Below are positions 21,537-30,992 of a stretch of 40,684 nucleotides of DNA, one piece after another. A program made the translations under genes and the position numbers. The stretch spans positions 1 through 40,684 of the forward strand of contig JAGPCO010000070.1 in NCBI GenBank assembly GCA_018058095.1, read 5' to 3'. Below the pieces are notes generated by a model. That model searched no databases. It was not told the DNA's origin and saw only the letters and a program-made list of their open reading frames with translations. The DNA is from Kofleriaceae bacterium (GTDB lineage: Bacteria > Myxococcota_A > Polyangia > Haliangiales > Haliangiaceae). Numbering within the stretch: the first letter of the stretch is position 1; each line of letters opens with the position of its first letter.

Positions 21537-22655
21537 TCACGGCGGGGCCTCGGCCCGGGCCGGGGCCAGCAGCTGCCCCAGGCGCGGGTTGGCGGCGCGC
21601 CGCCACAGGAAGGCGTCGAGCACGTAATGGGTGAGCTGCGGGACGATGAGCAACGGCACCAGCAGCGCGGTCACCCCACCACCGAGCTCGTCGCCCAGCC
21701 CGAACAGCCAGGGCCGGTCGTGCCACACCATCCGATCCCACAGCAGCTCCTCGACGTAGGCCAGGGCCCAGCAGGTGGCGGCGAAGGCGAGGAAGCCACG
21801 CTGGACGATGCTCGCGCCCAGGCCGCGCGAGCGCGGATCGACCCGGGCCGCCGTCCGCGTGTACACGAACACCAGCACCAGGTACGGCACGCCGTGGATG
21901 AACACGTTGGTGACGGTGAAGGCGAAGTCGCTGTTGGTGGCGACGATGCCCACGTACCAGCACGCCGCGGTCGACAGCACGACCAGGTGCTTGCCCCAGC
22001 TGACCTGGCCTCGCCACGCCTGCCAGCCAGCGCGGCCGAGGTACGCCGCGCCGATCAGCAGGTACAGCACCGCGGCGGCGTCGGCGATCTTCGCCGGCAG
22101 GCCGGCCGCCAGATCGCCCTCACGCATCCACCAGAACGCCCGCGGTAGCTGGGTGTGCCAGACCACCAGCGGGTACAGCGTGGCGGCGTACACCGCGGCG
22201 GCGTCGATCCACCGCCCGAGGCGATCACGCTCGCCGTGACGGGCCCGGTACAGCGCGACCCAGCCCCACTGCTGGCGCACGAAGTGGAAGATGGCCAGGT
22301 AGGCCACGCCGCGCCAGAACACCTCGGCCCCGAGCTGGTAGCCGATGACGCCGACCAGGTAGCAACCGATCGGCACCAGCGCGTACAGGCGTGGCCGGCG
22401 CTGCCGCTCGAACGGGTCGAGGTACACCACGAACACGGTCGACCAGACGTGGGCGACGTCGACCAGCAACACGCCGACGATCCAGCTCCACTCTGGCGAG
22501 GCCCCGCTGGTCACGCCGAGGTGAGGCGCCAGCAGCACGGCCAGCAGCGCCAGCGCCGCGGTGCCGCCGAACACCAGCAGGTCGATCACCGGCGAGAACA
22601 GCCAGCCGGATCGACCTGGCGGCGGCGCGGCCGGGGCCGGCGCCGGCGTGGTCAC
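21537..22655 (-). CDS. Polytopic membrane protein of unknown family
   Basis: This is a 372-aa protein with about nine or ten membrane helices, among them PVIDLLVFGGTAALALLAVLLAP, SWIVGVLLVDVAHVWSTVF and LYALVPIGCYLVGVIGY. Recurrent polar motifs are DVAHVWSTVF, FHFVRQQWGW, VLYLLIGAAYLG, NVFIHGVPYLVLVF and LTHYVLDAFLWR. His residues sit inside helices (AHVW, FHFVRQQ, FIHG, THYVLD), which may bind a metal, heme or substrate, as in membrane hydroxylase or desaturase folds; this is inference. GTG 22655 overlaps the upstream oxidoreductase stop by 4 bp (GTGA), so the two are co-translated. It is the last gene of the operon. Confidence 0.75.
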   Translation of the reverse strand: MTTPAPAPAAPPPGRSGWLFSPVIDLLVFGGTAALALLAVLLAPHLGVTSGASPEWSWIVGVLLVDVAHVWSTVFVVYLDPFERQRRPRLYALVPIGCYLVGVIGYQLGAEVFWRGVAYLAIFHFVRQQWGWVALYRARHGERDRLGRWIDAAAVYAATLYPLVVWHTQLPRAFWWMREGDLAAGLPAKIADAAAVLYLLIGAAYLGRAGWQAWRGQVSWGKHLVVLSTAACWYVGIVATNSDFAFTVTNVFIHGVPYLVLVFVYTRTAARVDPRSRGLGASIVQRGFLAFAATCWALAYVEELLWDRMVWHDRPWLFGLGDELGGGVTALLVPLLIVPQLTHYVLDAFLWRRAANPRLGQLLAPARAEAPP

Positions 22656-24283
22656 GCCACCCTCGCGGCGATGATCTCGCGCGCGGCGCGCAGGCCGTGA
22701 TCGAAGGCCTCCTCGAACAGGGCCAGGCCCGACAGGTCGGTGTGGGCGAAGTGGAGCCGACCGATCGGCTCGGCGCGCTGGCGCCGGGTCGGATCGAAGA
22801 TGCGGCCGACGCCGGGCCGCGGCATGCCGTGGCCCCAGAAGGCGACGTCGACGCGGCTGACCAGGTCGCGCAGGTCGGGGTGTGGCCGCTCGAGGTCGGC
22901 CAGCACCACCTCGGCCCAGTCGGCCCGGGTCGCGCTCTCGAGCTGGCGCCGGTGGTCGGCCGAGACTCCCTCGGTGAACGGGTAGTACCAGGTCCACACC
23001 GTCGGCCCGTGGTCGGCGCCAGCCTGGTGGGTCGCGCTGACGTAGCCCAGGCTGGGGCTGTCGTACAGGACGTTGTCCCACGCCGGCGGCGCCTCGCCGC
23101 CGCGCGGGCGCGGGCGCGCGCGCAGGGTCAGGTTGGCCACCGCCCAGGCGCCGGTGTCGGGCGGCGGCAAGGCGCGTGCGGCCAGCGCCGGCACCAGGCG
23201 GCGGGCCACGAAGGCCGGGGTGGCGATGACCGCGTGGCGGGCCGCGACCGCGAACGGACCGGCCGTGCCGACGCCGCGCGCGACCACGCCGTCGGCGTCG
23301 GCCTCGAGCGCGGTGACCGCCGCGCCGGTGACGACCTCGACGCCGGCGGCGAGCTGGCGCACCAGCGGCGCGTTGCCGTCGGGCCAGGTCACCACCGCCT
23401 GGGCCTCCGCGCCCGGCGCCGGTCGTCGCGACGCGAAGTAGAACAGGCCGGCCCAGGCGCTGGTCCCGGCCGCGGTCAGCGCGTAGTCGTCACGGCAGGC
23501 GTAGTCGGCCAGCCAGCGCAGGCGGGGCGAGGTCAACCCGCGCCCGTCGAGCCAGGCCGCGAACGAGAGCTGGTCGAGCGCGGCGACCTCGGCGTCGGCC
23601 GAGCAGGCCGAGACCGGCGAGGTGAAGGCGCGCCGGCCGGCGCCGTCGCGCCAGCCGGCCCAGCGGTCGACCTCGGCCTCGAACGCGCGCAGCTGGGCCA
23701 CGTCGTCGGCGCTGGCGCCGGCGCCCTGGTACAGGCCCGGGTACCAGCGGCCACGGTAGTACAGCCGCTCCTCCGGCTCGCGGCAGCGCAGGGCCTCGTC
23801 GACGATGGCCGTGCCGTCGCTGGTCCAGCCCTCGATGGCGCCGAGCTCACCCAGCAGCGCGACCAGGTCGTGCTGCTCGCGCTGCGGCGCGACGATGTAG
23901 TGCGCACCCCACGGCGCCGGCGTGACCGGCCCGGGGTGGGCGCGCGCGGTGCCGCCGATCACGTCGTCGAGCTCGAGCACCAGCAGGTCGCGCACGCCGG
24001 CCCGACGAAGGGCCCAGGCCGCGGCCAGCCCGGCCACGCCGCCGCCGATGATGACGACCTCGCACCGGCGGGTCTGGTCCGGCCCGGCCGGTGGGCCGGC
24101 GGATGGGCCGGCGTCGCGCACCGCAGCGTGGCCACGTCGTCGCCCGGTCTCGATCAGCTCACCGTCGGGCAGGGCCGGGCGGCGCGAACAGCCCAGGCCG
24201 GCGCCGACGCCGGCCAGCCCGGCCGCGACCGGCGCGCCGAGCAGCAGGGCGACGAAGTCGCGGCGGGTGGCCCCGGTGCTCAC
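22652..24283 (-). CDS. Tat-exported FAD-dependent oxidoreductase (amine-oxidase-like)
   Basis: This is a 543-aa protein. GTG 24283 gives a twin-arginine signal (TRRDFVALLLG) followed by a possible lipid-attachment Cys at 32 (AGLGC), so the folded flavoprotein is likely exported and membrane-anchored. The FAD-binding GxGxxG is IGGGVAGLAAAWALRRAG (79-96), then the ELDDVIGGTAR segment of the flavin amine-oxidase/phytoene-desaturase fold. The middle (SFAAWLDGRGLTSPRLRWLADYACRDDY) and C-terminal (HFAHTDLSGLALFEEAFDHGLRAA) parts match NAD_binding_8/amine-oxidase proteins. The partner upstream is an aminopropyltransferase-like protein, so a polyamine-type amine as substrate is attractive but unproven. 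Overlaps of 4 bp occur at both ends. Confidence 0.85.
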   Translation of the reverse strand: MSTGATRRDFVALLLGAPVAAGLAGVGAGLGCSRRPALPDGELIETGRRRGHAAVRDAGPSAGPPAGPDQTRRCEVVIIGGGVAGLAAAWALRRAGVRDLLVLELDDVIGGTARAHPGPVTPAPWGAHYIVAPQREQHDLVALLGELGAIEGWTSDGTAIVDEALRCREPEERLYYRGRWYPGLYQGAGASADDVAQLRAFEAEVDRWAGWRDGAGRRAFTSPVSACSADAEVAALDQLSFAAWLDGRGLTSPRLRWLADYACRDDYALTAAGTSAWAGLFYFASRRPAPGAEAQAVVTWPDGNAPLVRQLAAGVEVVTGAAVTALEADADGVVARGVGTAGPFAVAARHAVIATPAFVARRLVPALAARALPPPDTGAWAVANLTLRARPRPRGGEAPPAWDNVLYDSPSLGYVSATHQAGADHGPTVWTWYYPFTEGVSADHRRQLESATRADWAEVVLADLERPHPDLRDLVSRVDVAFWGHGMPRPGVGRIFDPTRRQRAEPIGRLHFAHTDLSGLALFEEAFDHGLRAAREIIAARVA

Positions 24284-25848
24284 TGCCAGTGCGCCCACTC
24301 GGTGTCGTAGTAGCGGACCAGGGCCTGGCTATCGAGCCGGTTGATCTCGACCGGGACCGGGCCCATGTCGGCCGCGAAGCTGAACATCGCCACCAGCGCG
24401 GCGTCGTCGAGGAAGCGCCGCCCGGGCGGGGCCGTCACCGGCGGCGCGAACGCCGACTGCTTGGCCAGCGCGAAGCCCCACACCCCGAACGACGGCACCG
24501 CGACCTGGTACGGGTGGACCACGAAGCCGGCCGCGCGCATGGTCTCGATCACGCACCAGTACGACCGGCGCGCGAACAGGGGCGAGGTGGCTTGCACGGA
24601 GATGGCCGCCCCGGGCGCGAGCCGGGCCCGCAGCCGCTTGTAGAACAGCGTCGTGTACAGCTTGCCGAGGGCGTAGTTGTTGGGGTCGGGGAAGTCGACG
24701 ATGACCGCGTCCCAGCCGCCGGGGGCGCCGGCCAGCCAGGTCATGGCGTCCTGGTTGATCACCGTGACCCGCGGGTCGTCGAGCGAGCCGCGGTTGAGGG
24801 CGGCCAGCGGCGCCAGCTTGCGGGCCAGCCGGGTCATGGCCGGGTCGAGGTCGACCAGGGTGACGTGCTCGACGCTGGGGTGGGTCAGGATCTCGCGCAC
24901 GGCCAGGCCGTCGCCGCCGCCCAGCACCAGGACCCGGCGCGGCGGCGCGTCGGCCGCCAGCATGGCCGGGTGGACCAGGGCCTCGTGGTAGCGGTACTCG
25001 TCGGCCGAGGCGAACTGCAGGTTGCCGCCGAGGAACAGGTTGAAGCCGGCCCGGTTGGAGGTGACGACGATCCGCTGGTACGGCGAGGTCTCGGCGTACA
25101 CCACCTCGTCGGCGTACATCTGCGCCTCGGCGGCGTCGGTCAGGCGGCCGGCCTGGGTCAGCGCCAGCACCATGAGCAGGCACACGGCGCCGGCGCGCAC
25201 GCGAAGGCCGAGGGTGGCGCGGCCGAGCAGGGGCGCCAGCAGCCAGGTGCCCCACAGGCCGACCAGCGCGTTGCCCAGGCCCATGACCAGCGAGGTGCGG
25301 ATGAGCCCGAGCTGCGGCACCAGCACCAGCGGGAACAGCAGGGCGGCGGCCAGCGCGCCGATGTAGTCGAACGTCAGGACCCGCGACACCACGTCCTTGA
25401 ACGGCAACCGCTTCTCGAGCAGCCGCATCAGCAGCGGGATCTCGAGGCCGACCAGCGTGCCGATGAGGAACACCACCGCCAGCAGCAGCAGCTGGAAGTT
25501 GCGCACGGTCGGGAACAGCATGAACAGCGCCGGGGCGGAGGCGCCACCGACGAGGGCCACCGCCAGCTCGACCTCGATGAAGCGGCGGGCCAGGCCGCGG
25601 TCGAGGAAACGCGACAGCCAGGCGCCGAAGCCCATGGCCGACAGGTACAGGCCGATGACCAGCGAGAACTGCGTGACCGAGTCGCCCAGCAGGTAGCTGC
25701 CGAGCGTGCCGGCCAGCAGCTCGTACACCAGGCCGCAGGTGGCGACGACGAAGACGTTGAGGAACAGCAGCGCCGCCGGCAGCGGCCGGACCGGGGCCTC
25801 GGCCGCGCCGCCGTCGTCGGGGCGGGCCGCCGGGGCCTCCTCAGCCAT
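24280..25848 (-). CDS. Membrane-bound spermidine-synthase-like aminopropyltransferase
   Basis: This is a 522-aa two-part protein. Residues ~25-230 form about seven membrane helices (LFLNVFVVATCGLVYELLAG, LLLLAVVFLIGTLVGLEIPL). Residues ~245-520 form a spermidine-synthase domain: DEYRYHEALVHP (283-294), GGGDGLAVRE (310-319), LVDLDP (331-336) and VDFPDP (384-389), which keeps both Asp of the DSSDP-type active site. It should be able to bind decarboxylated SAM or SAM-like donor and an amine, but the real acceptor is unknown. Membrane fusions of this kind are widespread in bacteria and mostly uncharacterised. It overlaps DUF350 by 8 bp at its 5' side and the oxidoreductase by 4 bp at its 3' side. 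Confidence 0.93.
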   Translation of the reverse strand: MAEEAPAARPDDGGAAEAPVRPLPAALLFLNVFVVATCGLVYELLAGTLGSYLLGDSVTQFSLVIGLYLSAMGFGAWLSRFLDRGLARRFIEVELAVALVGGASAPALFMLFPTVRNFQLLLLAVVFLIGTLVGLEIPLLMRLLEKRLPFKDVVSRVLTFDYIGALAAALLFPLVLVPQLGLIRTSLVMGLGNALVGLWGTWLLAPLLGRATLGLRVRAGAVCLLMVLALTQAGRLTDAAEAQMYADEVVYAETSPYQRIVVTSNRAGFNLFLGGNLQFASADEYRYHEALVHPAMLAADAPPRRVLVLGGGDGLAVREILTHPSVEHVTLVDLDPAMTRLARKLAPLAALNRGSLDDPRVTVINQDAMTWLAGAPGGWDAVIVDFPDPNNYALGKLYTTLFYKRLRARLAPGAAISVQATSPLFARRSYWCVIETMRAAGFVVHPYQVAVPSFGVWGFALAKQSAFAPPVTAPPGRRFLDDAALVAMFSFAADMGPVPVEINRLDSQALVRYYDTEWAHWQ

Positions 25849-26059
25849 GGACGGCTGCGCTGATGATCAGCGCGATGCCGATCATCACGCCGGCGATGAT
25901 GATCGCCAGCGCCACGTTGTGATCCTCCTCGATCTCCTTGCGGATCGAGAACGGGGTGACCTGCTTCATGATCAGGAAGGCCACTCCGAACACCACGAGG
26001 CCGACCCCGGCGAAGGCCGCCGAGGTCACGATGGTTTCGCCGAGGTTCTCGAGCTTCAT
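25841..26059 (-). CDS. DUF350 small membrane protein
   Basis: This is a 72-aa protein with two membrane helices (TSAAFAGVGLVVFGVAFLIM and ALAIIIAGVMIGIALIISAAV). The polar loop between them is TPFSIRKEIEEDHNVAL, the EED-N pattern of the DUF350 family (E. coli YjfL relatives). ATG 26059 is preferred over GTG 26062 because GGAGG lies six bases before it and only three before the GTG. DUF350 genes recur beside polyamine-related synthases (for example YjfL near YjfC, a glutathionylspermidine-synthase homologue), which fits this neighbour. Its stop lies 8 bp inside the aminopropyltransferase gene, and its start touches the upstream stop by one base. Confidence 0.88.
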   Translation of the reverse strand: MKLENLGETIVTSAAFAGVGLVVFGVAFLIMKQVTPFSIRKEIEEDHNVALAIIIAGVMIGIALIISAAVHG

Positions 26060-26331
26060 CACTTTCCTCCCATGTAGCCGGTGTGCCAGAAGTGGTAGGC
26101 GCGGTAGCCGCCCGGCGAGCTGCGGACGCTGGTCGGCACGTTGTCGCGGCTGGTCGACCCGCCGGTGTCCCAGCCGATGAAGCTGAGCACCAGGTAGCCG
26201 CCGACGACGGCGGTGGCCAGGCCGAGCGTGATCCAGGTGCCCAGGCCGCGCCGGGTGGTCGGCAGCGGCGGCTGGTCGGCCGCGGGCGGATCGACGGCGG
26301 TGCGGGCGCCGGTGGTGGGGTCGTGGCTCAT
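26059..26331 (-). CDS. Small single-pass membrane protein
   Basis: This is a 90-aa protein. The soluble N-terminus (~30 residues, Pro/Ala/Thr-rich) precedes one helix (WITLGLATAVVGGYLVLSFIGW, ~33-54). The outer tail is Gly/Ser-rich and ends SSPGGYRAYHFWHTGYMGGK, with aromatic and His residues that could bind metal. No family is recognised. ATG 26331 overlaps the DUF4178 gene's stop by 4 bp. Its place between DUF4178 and DUF350 suggests it is a small subunit of the same membrane complex; small unknown membrane proteins are often found at this spot (inference from similar operons). Confidence 0.7.
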   Translation of the reverse strand: MSHDPTTGARTAVDPPAADQPPLPTTRRGLGTWITLGLATAVVGGYLVLSFIGWDTGGSTSRDNVPTSVRSSPGGYRAYHFWHTGYMGGK

Positions 26332-28322
26332 TCGTCGTCCTCGTCGTCGCTGGAGTTCGAGGCCAGGCCGGCCGGCGCCAGGTCGCTGGTCGACCAGCGC
26401 CGGCGCTCGAACGAGTAGGCCAGCAGGAGGATGACCAGGGTCGGCAGGCCGAGGGCGCCAGCCGCGACCAGCGCGTGCATCCAGCGGAACACGTCCTGCT
26501 TCACGACCACGCTCATCTCGGGATGGCCGGTCGAGTCCGCCGGCAGCGTGGCCTCGAGGCGCAGCACGTACGAGCCGGCCGGCACCGCGGGCAGGTGGAC
26601 GTCGGTGGTGTGCGAGCCCTCGGTCCAGGCCTCGCCGTCGTAGCCGGAGTAGAACTCGATGTCGCGGTCGAACATGACGTAGCGACCGGTGTCCTCGTGG
26701 ATCAGGTCACCGCCGATGGCCACCCACGAGTTGGACACGTCGGCGGTCAGGGTGATCTGCACGTTCTGCAGCGAGCGCAGCGCGAACGGCTGGCTGAAGT
26801 ACACCAGCTGGCCGGTCGGCGGCGGGGCCCAGGCGCCCGGCTCCTCGTCGGGGCTGGCCTCGGCCACCATCGGCGACATCCGCACCGGGCTGGTCATCAC
26901 CGTGCGGTTCTTGGCGACGACGCCGCGCACGACCAGGGCGGCGACCAGGGCCAGCATCGACCAGCCGAGCACGCGGGCCGGGCCGCTCCACGGGTTGGGC
27001 TGGTGCGGGCCGACGCCGACCCGCGACGGCAGCGGGATGGAGATCGGGCCGAGCGCGGCGGCCAGCGCCTTGCCGTCGAGGTAGGTCCCGAGCGACCAGT
27101 TGAGCTCGGCGCTGGAGCGCTCGCTCGACAGCATGGCCGGCGCGGAGACGTAGTCGCTGGCCGACACCTCCTCGCCAACCTCGACCTTCCAGTAGAACTC
27201 GCCGACGACCCAGCGCACCGTCAGCGTCGCGTACTGGAAGGGTTTGAAGGCCTGGCCGCGGTAGGTGATCGCGCCCCCGGTGCTGACCGCGGCCGGCGCC
27301 ACCGGCTGCACGTAGCTCCAGTGCCCGTCCGACTCGACCAGCCAGCGAAACCCGAGCTCGGGGTGATGCAGCAGGTACTCGGTGAACGGGTAGGTCGTGC
27401 CGTCGACGATGGCGCCGCGTCCGACCGTGCCGATCAGCGTCAGCTCGCGGCCCTCGAAGGTCACCTTGCTGCCGAGCGGCAGGATCGACGGCGCCTTCCA
27501 CGGCGTGCCCTCGAGCTTGCTCAGGATCTGCAGGGCCGGGGTGGTGGCGTCGAGCATGGCGCCGCAGAACGGGCACACCACGCGCATCGACGAGTCGGGC
27601 GCGCGCAGGTCGAGCGAGCCGTCGCAGCTCGGGCAGGCCAGCTTGCGGGCGACCGCGGGCAGGCGGGCGGCGCCGACGCCGGCGTCCTCGCCGCCCTGCA
27701 GGCCGAGGTCGGCCGGGGTGACCTGGCGGCCGAGGTACACGGTGGGCGTGGTCGGCGGCTGGCCGGCCACGCCGTAGTCGATGGTGGCGAAGCGGCCGTC
27801 GGGGTCGCCGAGGTCGGCGAACCAGAACTGGGCGCCCGGCTGGAACCGGTACGGCACCTCGCCTTCGGCCGCCAGGTACTGGCCGGTGGCGCGCTCGTTG
27901 ACGGTGTACATGCGGGGCACGCCGTCGAGCAGCGGCACGATGGCGCCGGGCTGGAGCTGCTGCCACGCGGGCACCGTGCCGGCGCCGGGGCTCTCGAAGG
28001 TCAGGTACATCCGCCCCTGGGCCTCGGCCAGCCAGCCCCAGCGGCCGTCGTCCATCTTGGCGTACCACTCCTGCCAGGTCCCGCCGGCGCTGTGGCGGTG
28101 CTGGGTGCGGCCGATGACGATGAAGCCGACGCCGGCGAAGCGGCCCTCGGTGAACAGCTTGAGCGGCGACGGCAGGTCGGCCAGATCGGCGACCTTGCCG
28201 AGCGACTCGACGCCGCGGTCGGTGCGGAGGATCGACGACCGGCACGACCCGCACACGCGGACGAACGAGTCGTCGTAGCGGAACTCGAGCTCAGCGCCGC
28301 AGAAGGGGCAGTTGGTCTTCAC
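26328..28322 (-). CDS. Duplicated zinc-ribbon/DUF4178 membrane protein
   Basis: This is a 664-aa protein. Two similar halves each open with a four-Cys zinc ribbon: C5PFC8 with C24GSC27, and later CPSC...CPFC. Each ribbon is followed by a beta-rich DUF4178 domain, the first with GTWQEWYAKMDDGRWGWLAE, the second with TYPFTEYLLHHPELGFRWLVE. After them come a membrane helix (LGWSMLALVAALVVRGVV), an outer beta-sandwich of ~120 residues (ENVQITLTADVSN-like) and a second helix (ALVAAGALGLPTLVILLLAY). Start is GTG 28322, with AAGGTGAG about 12 bases before it. DUF4178 proteins often occur with DUF350 and spermidine-synthase genes; no function is proven. It is the first gene of the coupled group, 44 bp after the nth stop. 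Confidence 0.85.
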   Translation of the reverse strand: MKTNCPFCGAELEFRYDDSFVRVCGSCRSSILRTDRGVESLGKVADLADLPSPLKLFTEGRFAGVGFIVIGRTQHRHSAGGTWQEWYAKMDDGRWGWLAEAQGRMYLTFESPGAGTVPAWQQLQPGAIVPLLDGVPRMYTVNERATGQYLAAEGEVPYRFQPGAQFWFADLGDPDGRFATIDYGVAGQPPTTPTVYLGRQVTPADLGLQGGEDAGVGAARLPAVARKLACPSCDGSLDLRAPDSSMRVVCPFCGAMLDATTPALQILSKLEGTPWKAPSILPLGSKVTFEGRELTLIGTVGRGAIVDGTTYPFTEYLLHHPELGFRWLVESDGHWSYVQPVAPAAVSTGGAITYRGQAFKPFQYATLTVRWVVGEFYWKVEVGEEVSASDYVSAPAMLSSERSSAELNWSLGTYLDGKALAAALGPISIPLPSRVGVGPHQPNPWSGPARVLGWSMLALVAALVVRGVVAKNRTVMTSPVRMSPMVAEASPDEEPGAWAPPPTGQLVYFSQPFALRSLQNVQITLTADVSNSWVAIGGDLIHEDTGRYVMFDRDIEFYSGYDGEAWTEGSHTTDVHLPAVPAGSYVLRLEATLPADSTGHPEMSVVVKQDVFRWMHALVAAGALGLPTLVILLLAYSFERRRWSTSDLAPAGLASNSSDDEDDE

Positions 28323-28366: not shown

Positions 28367-29115
<749 letters not shown>

Positions 29116-29119
<4 letters not shown>

Positions 29120-30600
29120 GGCGATCCGTCCGGGCCGGGCTCGGCACCGTCGGGCGCGCCGGCGCCACCAGCGCTGGCGAGGGCGCGCTCGACGGCGGCC
29201 AGCTCGGGGTGAGCGGGCTCGCGCTGGCGAGCCTCGGCCAGCGCGACGCGCGCCTCGGTCGGGCGCCCGGCCCGCGCCAGCTGCCGGGCCAGCTCGACCA
29301 GCGCCCGCGCCTTGGTTGGCTCGAGCGCGGCGGCGCGCCGCAGCGCGGCCTCGGCCGCGGCCGGGTCCTGGCCCGCGCCGGCCTGGGCCAGCAGGCGGCC
29401 ACGCTGGTAGTACCCGCCCGGGTTGGTCGGGTCGACCTCGGTCAGGCGCTGGTAGGCGTGGAGCGCGCTGGCCCGGTCACCCAGCCGGCGGGCCGAGCCA
29501 CCCCAGAACCGGTAGTAGTCGCTGACCACGTCGTGGCTACGCGCCAGGTACGCGACCAAGCCGGCCGCGAGCAGCGGGGCCAGGCCGGTGGCCAGGCGCG
29601 GCCGGCGCGGCCGCTGGCGAGCGAGGTCGGTCCCGACCACCAGCACCACGCCGACGAGGGCGCCGGCCAGCGCGCCGGGCACGTCGACGACGAGGCCGAC
29701 GATGACCACGGCGGCGAGGGCGCCGGCCAGGCCCAGCCATCGCAGCGCCGGCGCGCTGGCGGCGGGCCAGGCCGCGCCGACGCGGCGGGCGGCGGTCAGC
29801 GCCGGCGCCATCCAGCGCTCGGGCACGACCAGGAGGTACATCGCCAGCATGAGCCAGGCGAACACGCCGATCTCCAGCCCCGACAGGATGATGCCGACGT
29901 GCAAGGCGATGCCGACCGGCAGCGCGACCGGCCACAGCCGCGGCACGGCGACGGTGACGGCGAGGACCAGCTCGATCAGGACGATCAGCTTGGCGCCGCG
30001 GGCGACGCCGATCCACTCGAGCCCTTCGCGCGCCAGTCCGGGCGCGATCTGCCGGGCCACGGTCGAGCCGTCGAGCCAGGGCCCCTCCAGCTTGGCCACC
30101 GCGGCCCACGCGTACATGATGGCCAGCTGCAGCAGGATCAGCCGCACGGCCCACGCCGGCTCGGGCCCAGCCGGGGCGGTGCTCGGCGCCTGGGCGTCAG
30201 CCCGGAACCACGGCACCGCCGTCGACACCAGCAGGAACAGCATGACCAGGTAGTGGTGCTGGTACGAGTCGAGCTGACTCGACAGGTAGACCCAGGCGTA
30301 GGTCGCCGCGGTCACGCCGACCAGCAGGCGCGAGCCGACGCCGACGGCGATCGCCGCCAGCGCCAGCGCCAGCACGACCTGAGCGACGGCGAAGCCGACC
30401 CGGCCGGGTGCCAGCGCGTCGAGCCCGGGCACGTGGGCGACGTTGAAGCCCGCGCCGTAGCGCGGGGCGTGGCGCAGCTGCAGCACGGCGTCGACCGCGA
30501 GCACGCCGAAGATGGCCAGCCGGGCCAGCGCCAGCTTCCCGCGCGACACGGCGAAGTCGGCGAAGAACGACGGCAGCGCGGGCGTGGCGCCGCTGCTCAT
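29116..30600 (-). CDS. HTTM (vitamin-K-carboxylase-like) membrane protein with TPR tail
   Basis: This is a 494-aa protein. About eleven membrane helices fill residues ~25-385; among them YLSSQLDSYQHHYLVMLFLL and LQLAIMYAWAAVAKLEGPWLDG are the HTTM signature of the gamma-carboxylase-like family. Tetratricopeptide-like helices occupy ~400-480 (RASALHAYQRLTEVDPTNPGGYY, LEPTKARALVELARQL), and the tail is Gly/Ala/Pro-rich. HTTM proteins are thought to be quinone-linked membrane enzymes; bacterial substrates are mostly unknown. TPRs on the C-terminus suggest docking of a substrate protein. ATG 30600 overlaps the preceding gene by 4 bp. The gene before it supplies a small piece resembling the C-terminal part of the same family. 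Confidence 0.82.
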
Positions 30601-30992
30601 AGCCGCTCGGCGATGCACATGTCGCGGCCGCCGTAGGTCCGGCTCGAGCCATCCATGTAGCGGCAGGTGAGCGTGAGGTGGACGTCGACGCCGGCGCGCT
30701 GGCCACACAAGCGGGCCGCCATGGCCTCGAGCACGACGAAGCGGCCGCGGTTGGCCAGCTCGAGCCAGGCCTCGTGGAACTGGCCGAGGATCCGCACCGG
30801 CTGGTCGTCGACGGTGAAGCGGGCCTCACACGTCGCCATCCGCATCGGCGAGAACATGCGCCAGGCGAAGCGCTCGTCGTGCGGGTCGCGATGCCACAGG
30901 TAGTAGCGCAGCGGCAGCAGGAGCTGGACCAGCAGGAAGGCGACGACGACGCGCCCGGTCCAGCTCGACAGCATCTGGCGCAGCGCGATCAC
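30597..30992 (-). CDS. Small membrane protein, HTTM-partner (carboxylase C-terminal-like)
   Basis: This 131-aa protein has one membrane helix near the N-terminus (TGRVVVAFLLVQLLLPL, ~12-28). It then has LRYYLWHRDPHDERFAWRMFSP, which resembles the 'PLR...W...FSWRMM' stretch found after the membrane domain in vitamin-K-dependent carboxylase-like proteins. The rest is a small beta domain with two Cys (LCGQRAG, LTCRYMDG, RDMC). The start is GTG 30992; ATG 30974 is possible but removes only six residues. It overlaps the HTTM gene start, so the two probably form one split enzyme. It heads the long minus-strand run; 69 bp separate it from the preceding BNR lipoprotein gene stop. Confidence 0.72.
   Translation of the reverse strand: MIALRQMLSSWTGRVVVAFLLVQLLLPLRYYLWHRDPHDERFAWRMFSPMRMATCEARFTVDDQPVRILGQFHEAWLELANRGRFVVLEAMAARLCGQRAGVDVHLTLTCRYMDGSSRTYGGRDMCIAERL

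Follow-up and report, generated by a model that had tools for sequence, protein, structure and literature searches.

A widespread membrane operon in a Kofleriaceae genome joins an aminopropyltransferase with a small lysine-ending protein, its candidate acceptor

The window, a stretch of 40,684 nucleotides from contig JAGPCO010000070.1 of a Kofleriaceae bacterium (assembly GCA_018058095.1), carries a set of six overlapping open reading frames, all on the minus strand, whose previously given coordinates were confirmed when the sequence and its translations were re-read. The genes and the features discussed in the text are the following.

26328..28322, minus strand: gene A, DUF4178 protein of 664 aa with zinc ribbons and two membrane segments predicted near residues 451-469 and 617-635
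26059..26331, minus strand: gene B, 90-aa single-TM "lysine-tail" protein, based on the alignment of relatives
26062..26118, minus strand: conserved C-terminal tail of gene B, residues 72-90, ending in Gly-Gly-Lys and then the stop
25841..26062, minus strand: gene C, half-length DUF350 with two predicted TM segments, 72 aa from the ATG at 26059 or 73 from the GTG at 26062
24280..25848, minus strand: gene D, membrane aminopropyltransferase of 522 aa (NF002956 match; model pLDDT 92.2)
25156..25776, minus strand: gene D residues 25-231, seven predicted membrane helices (model and loop charges)
24283..25116, minus strand: gene D residues 245-522, aminopropyltransferase domain carrying the motifs YHE, GGGDG, and DxPDP
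22652..24283, minus strand: gene E, 543-aa member of the FAD amine oxidase family with a Tat signal
21537..22655, minus strand: gene F, polytopic protein of 372 aa; four invariant His, each on a different predicted helix

Re-reading the junctions showed that the original prediction was correct in describing six genes on one strand with an overlap at every junction. Genes A and B meet in ATGA (4 bp), genes B and C in TGATG, with one base shared if gene C starts at ATG 26059 and 4 bp if it starts at GTG 26062, genes C and D overlap by 8 bp, and the D/E and E/F junctions are both GTGA (4 bp each). Gene A matches DUF4178 (PF13785) with 95.1 bits against a cut-off of 25, and gene C matches DUF350 (PF03994) with 53.8 bits against a cut-off of 26, its 73 aa spanning positions 3-66 of the 133 in the profile, which corresponds to half the length and not to the full two-repeat form. 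No Pfam or NCBIfam family was matched by the small TM protein B or the polytopic protein F.

Among 30 loci of relatives, tblastn recovered all six genes in the same order at 14; a large part of the remaining loci end at contig edges, and the same arrangement was also met in other phyla. Chance or an annotation artefact as the origin of the operon was discarded, since both junctions and gene order recur. The named loci referred to below are the best 80 of 572 relatives from a genome scan, with phyla taken from record titles, and counts based on them come therefore from a sample biased to nearer homologues. Within these best 80, 67 loci show linkage between DUF4178 and the membrane aminopropyltransferase. 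The linked loci with enough sequence contained an AdoMet decarboxylase in 44/52 cases, and among those testable the FAD amine oxidase was found in 49/54 and the polytopic gene in 22/48, the latter appearing also in 7 of 8 Bacteroidota loci. The five testable linked loci lacking gene E (L089, L093, L110, L125, and L141) weigh against the explanation that we favor below. The expectation that DUF350, DUF4178, and spermidine-synthase-like genes recur together was thus borne out in relatives and in other phyla, and the suggestion that the FAD enzyme and the polytopic protein may be lineage-specific additions was contradicted by the same counts. Judging from sequence, the six genes represent the Myxococcota version of a membrane operon with a wide distribution rather than a lineage-specific one, the full set comprising an AdoMet decarboxylase, DUF4178, a lysine-tail microprotein, DUF350, a 7TM-aminopropyltransferase, an FAD amine oxidase, and an optional polytopic His protein.

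The AdoMet decarboxylase, usually the head gene of the set, was absent from the original prediction. It lies at most 40 bp upstream of DUF4178 in 13 of the 56 genomes searched, and in the window genome it is unlinked, on another contig (G000:C83). Its presence in 26 of 30 genomes with gene D, versus 3 of 26 without it, ties the supply of decarboxylated AdoMet (dcSAM) to D. The window genome contains speA as well, together with one further, borderline aminopropyltransferase match and nspC, which belongs to another spermidine route and was over the cut-off here and in 22/30 genomes with D, so that the acceptor of D need not be putrescine.

Gene D matches NF002956 (PRK03612, polyamine aminopropyltransferase) over residues 17-521 with 654.1 bits (cut-off 472) and Spermine_synth (PF01564) with 118.1 bits. 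The spermidine synthase fold is seen in the C-terminal half of D (VIA-align against 1uir_A, Z 35.5, rmsd 1.8, 268 residues), and the Foldseek and VIA-align matches listed for the whole model correspond to this catalytic domain. The GGGDG and D-x-x-D-P motifs first noticed by eye proved to be fully conserved: YHE, GGGDG, and DxxDP are retained in the alignment to 3anx, and the catalytic Y287, H288, E289, G310-G314 (including D313), D385, D388, and P389 are invariant in 45/45 aligned sequences. Seven predicted membrane helices precede the catalytic domain, so that D is not a stand-alone soluble protein. Loops 2-3, 4-5, and 6-7 of D contain Arg and Lys, and these charges, together with the predicted helices, would place its catalytic domain outside, where the FAD protein is exported by its Tat signal. 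An adduct made on one face of the membrane and oxidized on the other had been envisaged; an amine-oxidase-family FAD protein does accompany D, but the predicted helices and loop charges would put the catalytic domain of D outside as well. Such an outer catalytic domain would require dcSAM outside the cytoplasm, a demand that we count against our proposal.

Gene E matches Amino_oxidase (PF01593) over residues 83-538 with 81.3 bits (cut-off 19.8), and its Tat signal, already recognized in the original prediction, has an RR pair invariant in 17 aligned FAD proteins. A loose Tat regular expression applied across phyla was discarded because it matched almost anything. The best profile matches are to spermidine dehydrogenase and putrescine oxidase. 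SpdH (7d9j, 7d9f) is the best of them and includes the N-terminal signal region, its match spanning positions 2-105 only, and that of putrescine oxidase 2yg6 spans 61-351 with a similar E-value. Several Acidobacteriota and Gemmatimonadota E proteins have no lipobox Cys. The intramembrane His suspected in gene F turned out to be four, His 69, 124, 254, and 343, which are invariant in 26/26 aligned sequences and located on four different predicted helices; as a guess, they might hold a heme or a di-metal site. The F model (pLDDT 90.6) gave no Foldseek match at E 0.001 among solved structures, its best VIA-align match being an unconvincing one to sensory rhodopsin II (Z 6.6, rmsd 4.5, 165 residues), and profile searches gave 0 matches among PDB sequences and single-member chance matches only in Pfam.

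The most constant feature of gene B is its end. Gly-Lys closes 23/23 aligned relatives (Gly-Gly-Lys in 22), and in the 67 linked loci from the best 80 of 572 relatives the small TM protein, or the tail fused to DUF4178, has Lys as its last residue, preceded by Gly or His, in every case (67/67). In this set gene B was identified by its position between A and C, with the exception of L112, which was found via its Lys ending, and the tails of L116, L153, and L160 either form a fusion with DUF4178 or overlap it. The terminal Lys is kept across at least eight phyla (record titles, best 80 of 572) while the rest of the tail diverges. A Lys-ending tail was also present in 9/9 readable DUF4178 neighborhoods of genomes in which D is unlinked and in 12/13 plasmid records. 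As controls, terminal Lys was counted in C (0/68), D (2/80), the decarboxylase (1/51), E (1/52), and F (2/23) from the same best 80, and in background TM open reading frames (106/1246). Two plasmid tails ending in Val-Lys, and another Lys elsewhere in 39/68 tails from the best 80, weigh against the Lys as an acceptor. The net charge of the flanks favors an outside tail in 51 of these 68 proteins, is neutral in 12, and goes against it in 5; counting Lys and Arg only, no bias is seen (25/23/20), a point against the explanation proposed below. The original prediction did not mention this obligatory C-terminal Lys. In the open-access literature searched, no such rule was found in the available parts of the papers, including PMC11237479, PMC7298707, PMC11107197, PMC10407285, PMC12568646, PMC12506659, and PMC12270671.

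Operon conservation, the lysine rule, the intact catalytic residues, and the Tat signal are facts at the level of sequence. The explanation that we favor, with a probability of roughly 0.48, is that D aminopropylates the C-terminal Lys of B and that the product is in turn acted on by the exported FAD enzyme. The decarboxylase would provide dcSAM, whose passage across the membrane may be the task of the 7TM portion of D or of another component, for instance DUF350. With the tail of B and the catalytic domain of D both predicted to lie outside the inner membrane, D would transfer an aminopropyl group from dcSAM to the terminal Lys, at its side-chain amine, leaving a spermidine-like side chain. 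We infer that E would oxidize this modified Lys, either as a reversal or as a step to an aldehyde, perhaps handing the electrons to F, and that DUF4178 and DUF350 would form a membrane assembly carrying or reading the tail. A Lys conserved in all linked loci at the end of an otherwise divergent tail is a concrete acceptor candidate, one that could be checked with a single peptide, each aminopropyl group adding about +57.06 Da. If true, this would be a new protein modification and an enzyme for which dcSAM serves as an extracytoplasmic substrate. If wrong, the Lys rule would still be useful to find and annotate a microprotein with no Pfam match, the Lys itself being left unexplained.

To our knowledge, no acceptor has been established for membrane-fused spermidine-synthase-like enzymes. 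Li, in 2019, reportedly dealt with MFS-spermidine synthase fusions accompanied by class 1b AdoMet decarboxylase, said to have a role outside polyamine synthesis and an acceptor that was left unidentified. These fusions represent the same enzyme kind as D, with the same partner; what is added here is a candidate for the acceptor and the prediction of an outward-facing catalytic domain. The kind of operon is already published. The available portion of Ravi et al. (2024; PMC11237479) describes PspA-associated operons in which, as here, DUF350 and DUF4178 accompany a spermine synthase-like protein with a 7TM fusion. Unlike in those operons, neither PspA nor CesT/Tir was found among the six window proteins by the family scan, the DUF350 is a 2TM half-length form and not an 8TM one, and the microprotein with the terminal Lys takes the place of the Ctha_1186 lipoprotein. 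Neither a terminal Lys nor a polytopic His protein is mentioned in that portion of the paper, and the terminal-Lys rule is a new fact of this work. The Pseudomonas ISS-locus SpeE2, according to the accessible part of PMC7298707, resembles D in that its spermidine-synthase-like domain is joined to TM domains and its gene lies in a multi-gene locus, but has altered catalytic residues E624, T556, and P627 (numbering of that paper) where D, by motif correspondence, has the invariant Asp D385, D313, and D388.

A parallel is also found in E. coli, where YgiB and YjfM end in Gly-Gly and lie beside YgiC and YjfC, annotated in RefSeq as peptide-spermidine ligases. Like the window operon, yjfIJKLMC includes a DUF350 gene (YjfL), and both yjf and ygiBC combine a membrane-anchored or secreted protein with a Gly/Ser/Arg-rich tail (YjfM, YgiB; anchoring judged from sequence) with polyamine chemistry. 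These annotations and the title of Pederick 2023 indicate that the joining of peptides to polyamines has a known precedent next to a DUF350 gene, in the yjf operon. The tails and enzymes differ, being Gly-Gly with an ATP-grasp peptide-spermidine ligase in E. coli and Gly-Lys or His-Lys with an aminopropyltransferase in the window set. Looking for such tails beyond enterics, DUF1190 (PF06693) was found in 0/20 genomes searched, so that the Gly-Gly parallel rests on the three sequences compared (YgiB, E. coli YjfM, and Salmonella YjfM). With somewhat less than even odds, we suggest that this is a new post-translational modification, in which an outward-facing membrane enzyme would aminopropylate the C-terminal Lys of an extracytoplasmic tail using exported dcSAM and an exported flavoenzyme would act on the mark, and that Gly-Lys/His-Lys and Gly-Gly tails would be two convergent ways to polyamine-cap a DUF350-associated envelope protein. 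Polyamine-capped envelope tails would then be a common logic linking these operons with E. coli yjf/ygi.

Among other explanations, D may aminopropylate a different non-putrescine acceptor of the envelope (a lipid, peptidoglycan, or a small molecule), with the Lys tail serving D, DUF350, or DUF4178 as a tag for assembly or recognition. We regard this as unlikely, although it would fit the intact catalytic residues of D and the alternative spermidine route present in many of these genomes. Two genomes, G005 and G008, have decarboxylase and D alone, with no lysine-tail gene found nearby, which speaks for such an acceptor and weighs against the terminal Lys. Ravi et al. (2024; PMC11237479), in its available portion, also mentions "aminopropylation of other substrates", crediting Li 2019. 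However, a tag would usually allow Arg or one extra residue, and Lys is last in every linked locus of the best 80 and across at least eight phyla. Synthesis by D, at the membrane, of ordinary free spermidine or of a polyamine related to it, with A, B, and C for sensing or transport and E for degradation, would agree with the NCBIfam name and its score, the full spermidine synthase fold, the co-occurring decarboxylase, and the speA of the window genome. Yet it seems improbable: spermidine does not need D where nspC is present, as in the window genome and most genomes with D, and the terminal Lys would be left unexplained. Such fusions are also said, in the 2019 work of Li, to fail to replace spermidine synthase in E. 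coli, which we count against free spermidine as the product.

The chances are slim that the terminal Lys is a substrate of E alone, cross-linking the tail to the envelope through a lysyl-oxidase-like aldehyde while D has a separate role. E is Tat-exported, of the amine oxidase family, and usually adjoins D (49/54, best 80 of 572), but the Lys is retained in the five loci of that set where E was not found and also in L050 and L052. Very improbable is a Lys codon kept by pressure on DNA or stability, be it the ribosome-binding site of the next gene or shielding from tail-specific proteases. In the window GGA GGA AAG directly precedes the DUF350 start, and among the best 80 a Shine-Dalgarno-like core appears in the last 12 nt of 34/68 genes, with GGA commoner at the penultimate Gly (17/48) than upstream in the tail (36/284). 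Shielding, in turn, would accept Arg, Asp, or Glu too. A ribosome-binding site may shape the Gly codons but was rejected as the origin of the Lys, which persists in 24/24 loci (best 80 of 572) where the next DUF350 start is 17-884 bp away (>14 bp) or absent, with AAA and AAG both in use and often as CAY AAR, which does not resemble a ribosome site.

The six genes lie on the minus strand at window positions 21537–28322, and re-reading of the open reading frames and junctions has borne out the originally predicted number, extent, strand and overlaps. In transcription order they are:

A, minus strand, first: DUF4178 protein, 664 aa
B, minus strand, second: single-TM protein, 90 aa
C, minus strand, third: DUF350 protein, half-length
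D, minus strand, fourth: membrane aminopropyltransferase, 522 aa
E, minus strand, fifth: Tat-signal FAD protein of the amine oxidase family, 543 aa
F, minus strand, sixth: polytopic protein, 372 aa

The next gene upstream (28367–29119, minus strand, 44 bp from A) is endonuclease III-like by eye and may share a transcript with the operon; at 29116–30708, also minus, there is a polytopic protein that by eye looks HTTM-like, with a TPR-like C-terminus.

Among 56 genomes (the window's own plus others of its genus, family, order and class), D is encoded in 30, A in 26 (E 1e-20 or better) and F in 27, four of these being weak matches. The complete ordered set was found by tblastn in 14 of the 30 loci, and many of the rest end at a contig edge. 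By the same search, E and F are absent from two loci (L050 and L052), and D is present without the other five genes in four (L036, L037, L058 and L059). Two of the latter, from two species of one genus, carry a two-gene unit of AdoMet decarboxylase and D (L036:1162-3031 and L037:787-2653) adjoined by a divergent small TM gene, with an AAA ATPase-like gene (by eye) also in L036; no lysine tail was found at either unit. The decarboxylase (PF02675) was detected in 29 of the 56 genomes, namely 26 of the 30 with D versus 3 of the 26 without it. In 13 genomes its match coordinates put it at most 40 bp upstream of A, and it lies just upstream of D in two further ones (G005 and G008). The sole match in the window genome stands alone on another contig, unlinked to the operon (G000:C83:10922-11242), and because it outscores the linked copies (131 bits versus 78–90 bits) two decarboxylase kinds seem to serve this system.

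To cover other phyla, named genomes were scanned once with an alignment of D, keeping the best 80 of 572 relatives, whose neighbours were called with home-made profiles and whose phyla were taken from record titles. Within these best 80 of 572, A is linked to D in 67 loci, DUF350 being present in 66 of the 67 and the decarboxylase in 44 of 52 testable ones; for E and F the counts are 49 of 54 and 22 of 48, respectively. The 67 loci span at least eight phyla (Myxococcota and other 'Deltaproteobacteria', Acidobacteriota, Planctomycetota, Gemmatimonadota, Bacteroidota, Pseudomonadota, Verrucomicrobiota and Elusimicrobiota), and with E and F recurring in these loci, the suggestion that these two were lineage-specific additions did not hold. 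In Pseudomonadota, an SPFH-domain gene (annotated in L167) or an ORF with a SHOCT-like ending (by eye) is located upstream of DUF4178 (L167:1586-2581; L181–L190).

The C-terminus of B is Gly-Lys in 23 of 23 close relatives, 22 having Gly-Gly-Lys, and in all 67 A-linked named loci (best 80 of 572) Lys is the last residue of the ORF that separates A from DUF350. Among the 67 are three tails that are fused to A or overlap its end (L116, L153 and L160) and one, between two pieces of A, that was picked by its Lys ending (L112). Adding L159 gives 68 of 68, with 48 Gly and 20 His in the penultimate position. The remainder of the tail varies from phylum to phylum. As a control, Lys is last in 0/68 C, 2/80 D, 1/51 decarboxylase, 1/52 E and 2/23 F proteins of the named loci (best 80 of 572), in 5/100 A proteins, a count that includes fused tails, and in 106/1246 background TM ORFs. 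At the DNA level, GGA GGA AAG ahead of the DUF350 start resembles a ribosome-binding site. This source of the terminal Lys was rejected, as Lys is kept in 24 of 24 loci where the next DUF350 start is 17–884 bp off or absent, Lys is encoded by AAA (39) as well as AAG (29), and a His-Lys ending does not resemble such a site.

Thirteen plasmid records matched D by tblastn, and 12 have a Lys-ending TM or lipoprotein tail beside DUF4178, DUF350, decarboxylase or D (Gemmatirosa, three Novosphingobium, three Burkholderia, two Tritonibacter, both ending Val-Lys, Ensifer, and two Alteromonas, the second counted by identical protein accession); the thirteenth, Rhodovulum, has a D fragment only, the other operon genes being absent. 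In Alteromonas a 510-aa lipoprotein-like protein (lipobox by eye; L171:10228-11760), flanked by DUF4178 and a long DUF350 gene, ends Ser-Gly-Lys and is otherwise unlike B. In 12 genomes with unlinked D (ten of them the genomes of named loci, the others being G005 and G008), DUF4178 occurs elsewhere in 11, nine of which have a His-Lys-ending tail that either follows it immediately or is fused to it. The DUF4178 neighbourhood is interrupted by a contig end in L183, no Lys-ending tail was found at the DUF4178 of G005, and G008 gave no DUF4178 match.

The catalytic residues of D are invariant in 45 of 45 aligned sequences. In its model (pLDDT 92.2) seven long helices precede a catalytic domain that aligns structurally with Thermus aminopropyltransferase (Z 35.5, rmsd 1.8, 268 residues). 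This domain is predicted by the positive-inside rule to lie on the outer face, because Lys+Arg are concentrated around loops 2-3, 4-5 and 6-7 (means 2.8, 3.7 and 3.4, versus 0, 0.8 and 1.0 around loops 1-2, 3-4 and 5-6; 45 sequences); the stretch following helix 7 is net negative in the same set. The orientation of B is harder to call: net flank charge points to an outside tail in 51 of 68, is neutral in 12 and against in 5, and Lys+Arg alone give 25/23/20, i.e., no bias. The Tat RR of E is invariant (17/17 aligned). In profile comparison with solved structures, E scores best against spermidine dehydrogenase SpdH, over positions 2-105 only, and against putrescine oxidase, over 61-351.

The simplest reading joining these facts, to which we give a probability of roughly 0.48, is that on the outer face D would aminopropylate the C-terminal Lys of B, whose side chain would then resemble spermidine and be acted on by E. 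It is unlikely, though worth considering, that D modifies another envelope acceptor, and still less probable that it makes a free polyamine. In the window genome PF01564 matches D (121.2 bits) and one borderline protein (24.7, cut-off 22.9), and both nspC, of the carboxyspermidine route (453.8, cut-off 409.05), and speA (781.8, cut-off 624.1) are present. Since nspC also exceeds its cut-off in 22 of the 30 D-bearing genomes, free spermidine can, judging from gene content, be made without D.

Neither B nor F matched a Pfam or NCBIfam family in profile searches, nor did any Pfam model match the F family; profile and structure searches with F (model pLDDT 90.6) found no convincing solved structural relative. 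Four His, Q128 and D347 are conserved without exception in 26 relatives, and likewise in all 25 members of a cross-phylum set including the window protein. As four of the 26 lie outside the operon and keep these residues (L068:7726-8772, L069:8257-9303, L070:1399-2475 and L071:2818-3921), F also has an existence independent of it. In the portion of the open-access literature searched, no mention was found of the lysine rule, of an outer topology such as that predicted here, or of the cross-phylum F gene.

A parallel to the proposed modification of B is offered by the yjf and ygi operons of E. coli, in which YjfM and YgiB end Gly-Gly; both the annotation and the title of Pederick (2023) identify the enzymes YjfC and YgiC as peptide-spermidine ligases. 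YgiB and YjfM of E. coli and YjfM of Salmonella have this ending beside a glutathionylspermidine-synthetase-family ligase (L172:1245-1916, L084:10388-11026 and L173:4001-4639), and it is possible that Gly-Gly is a rule for this operon type too.
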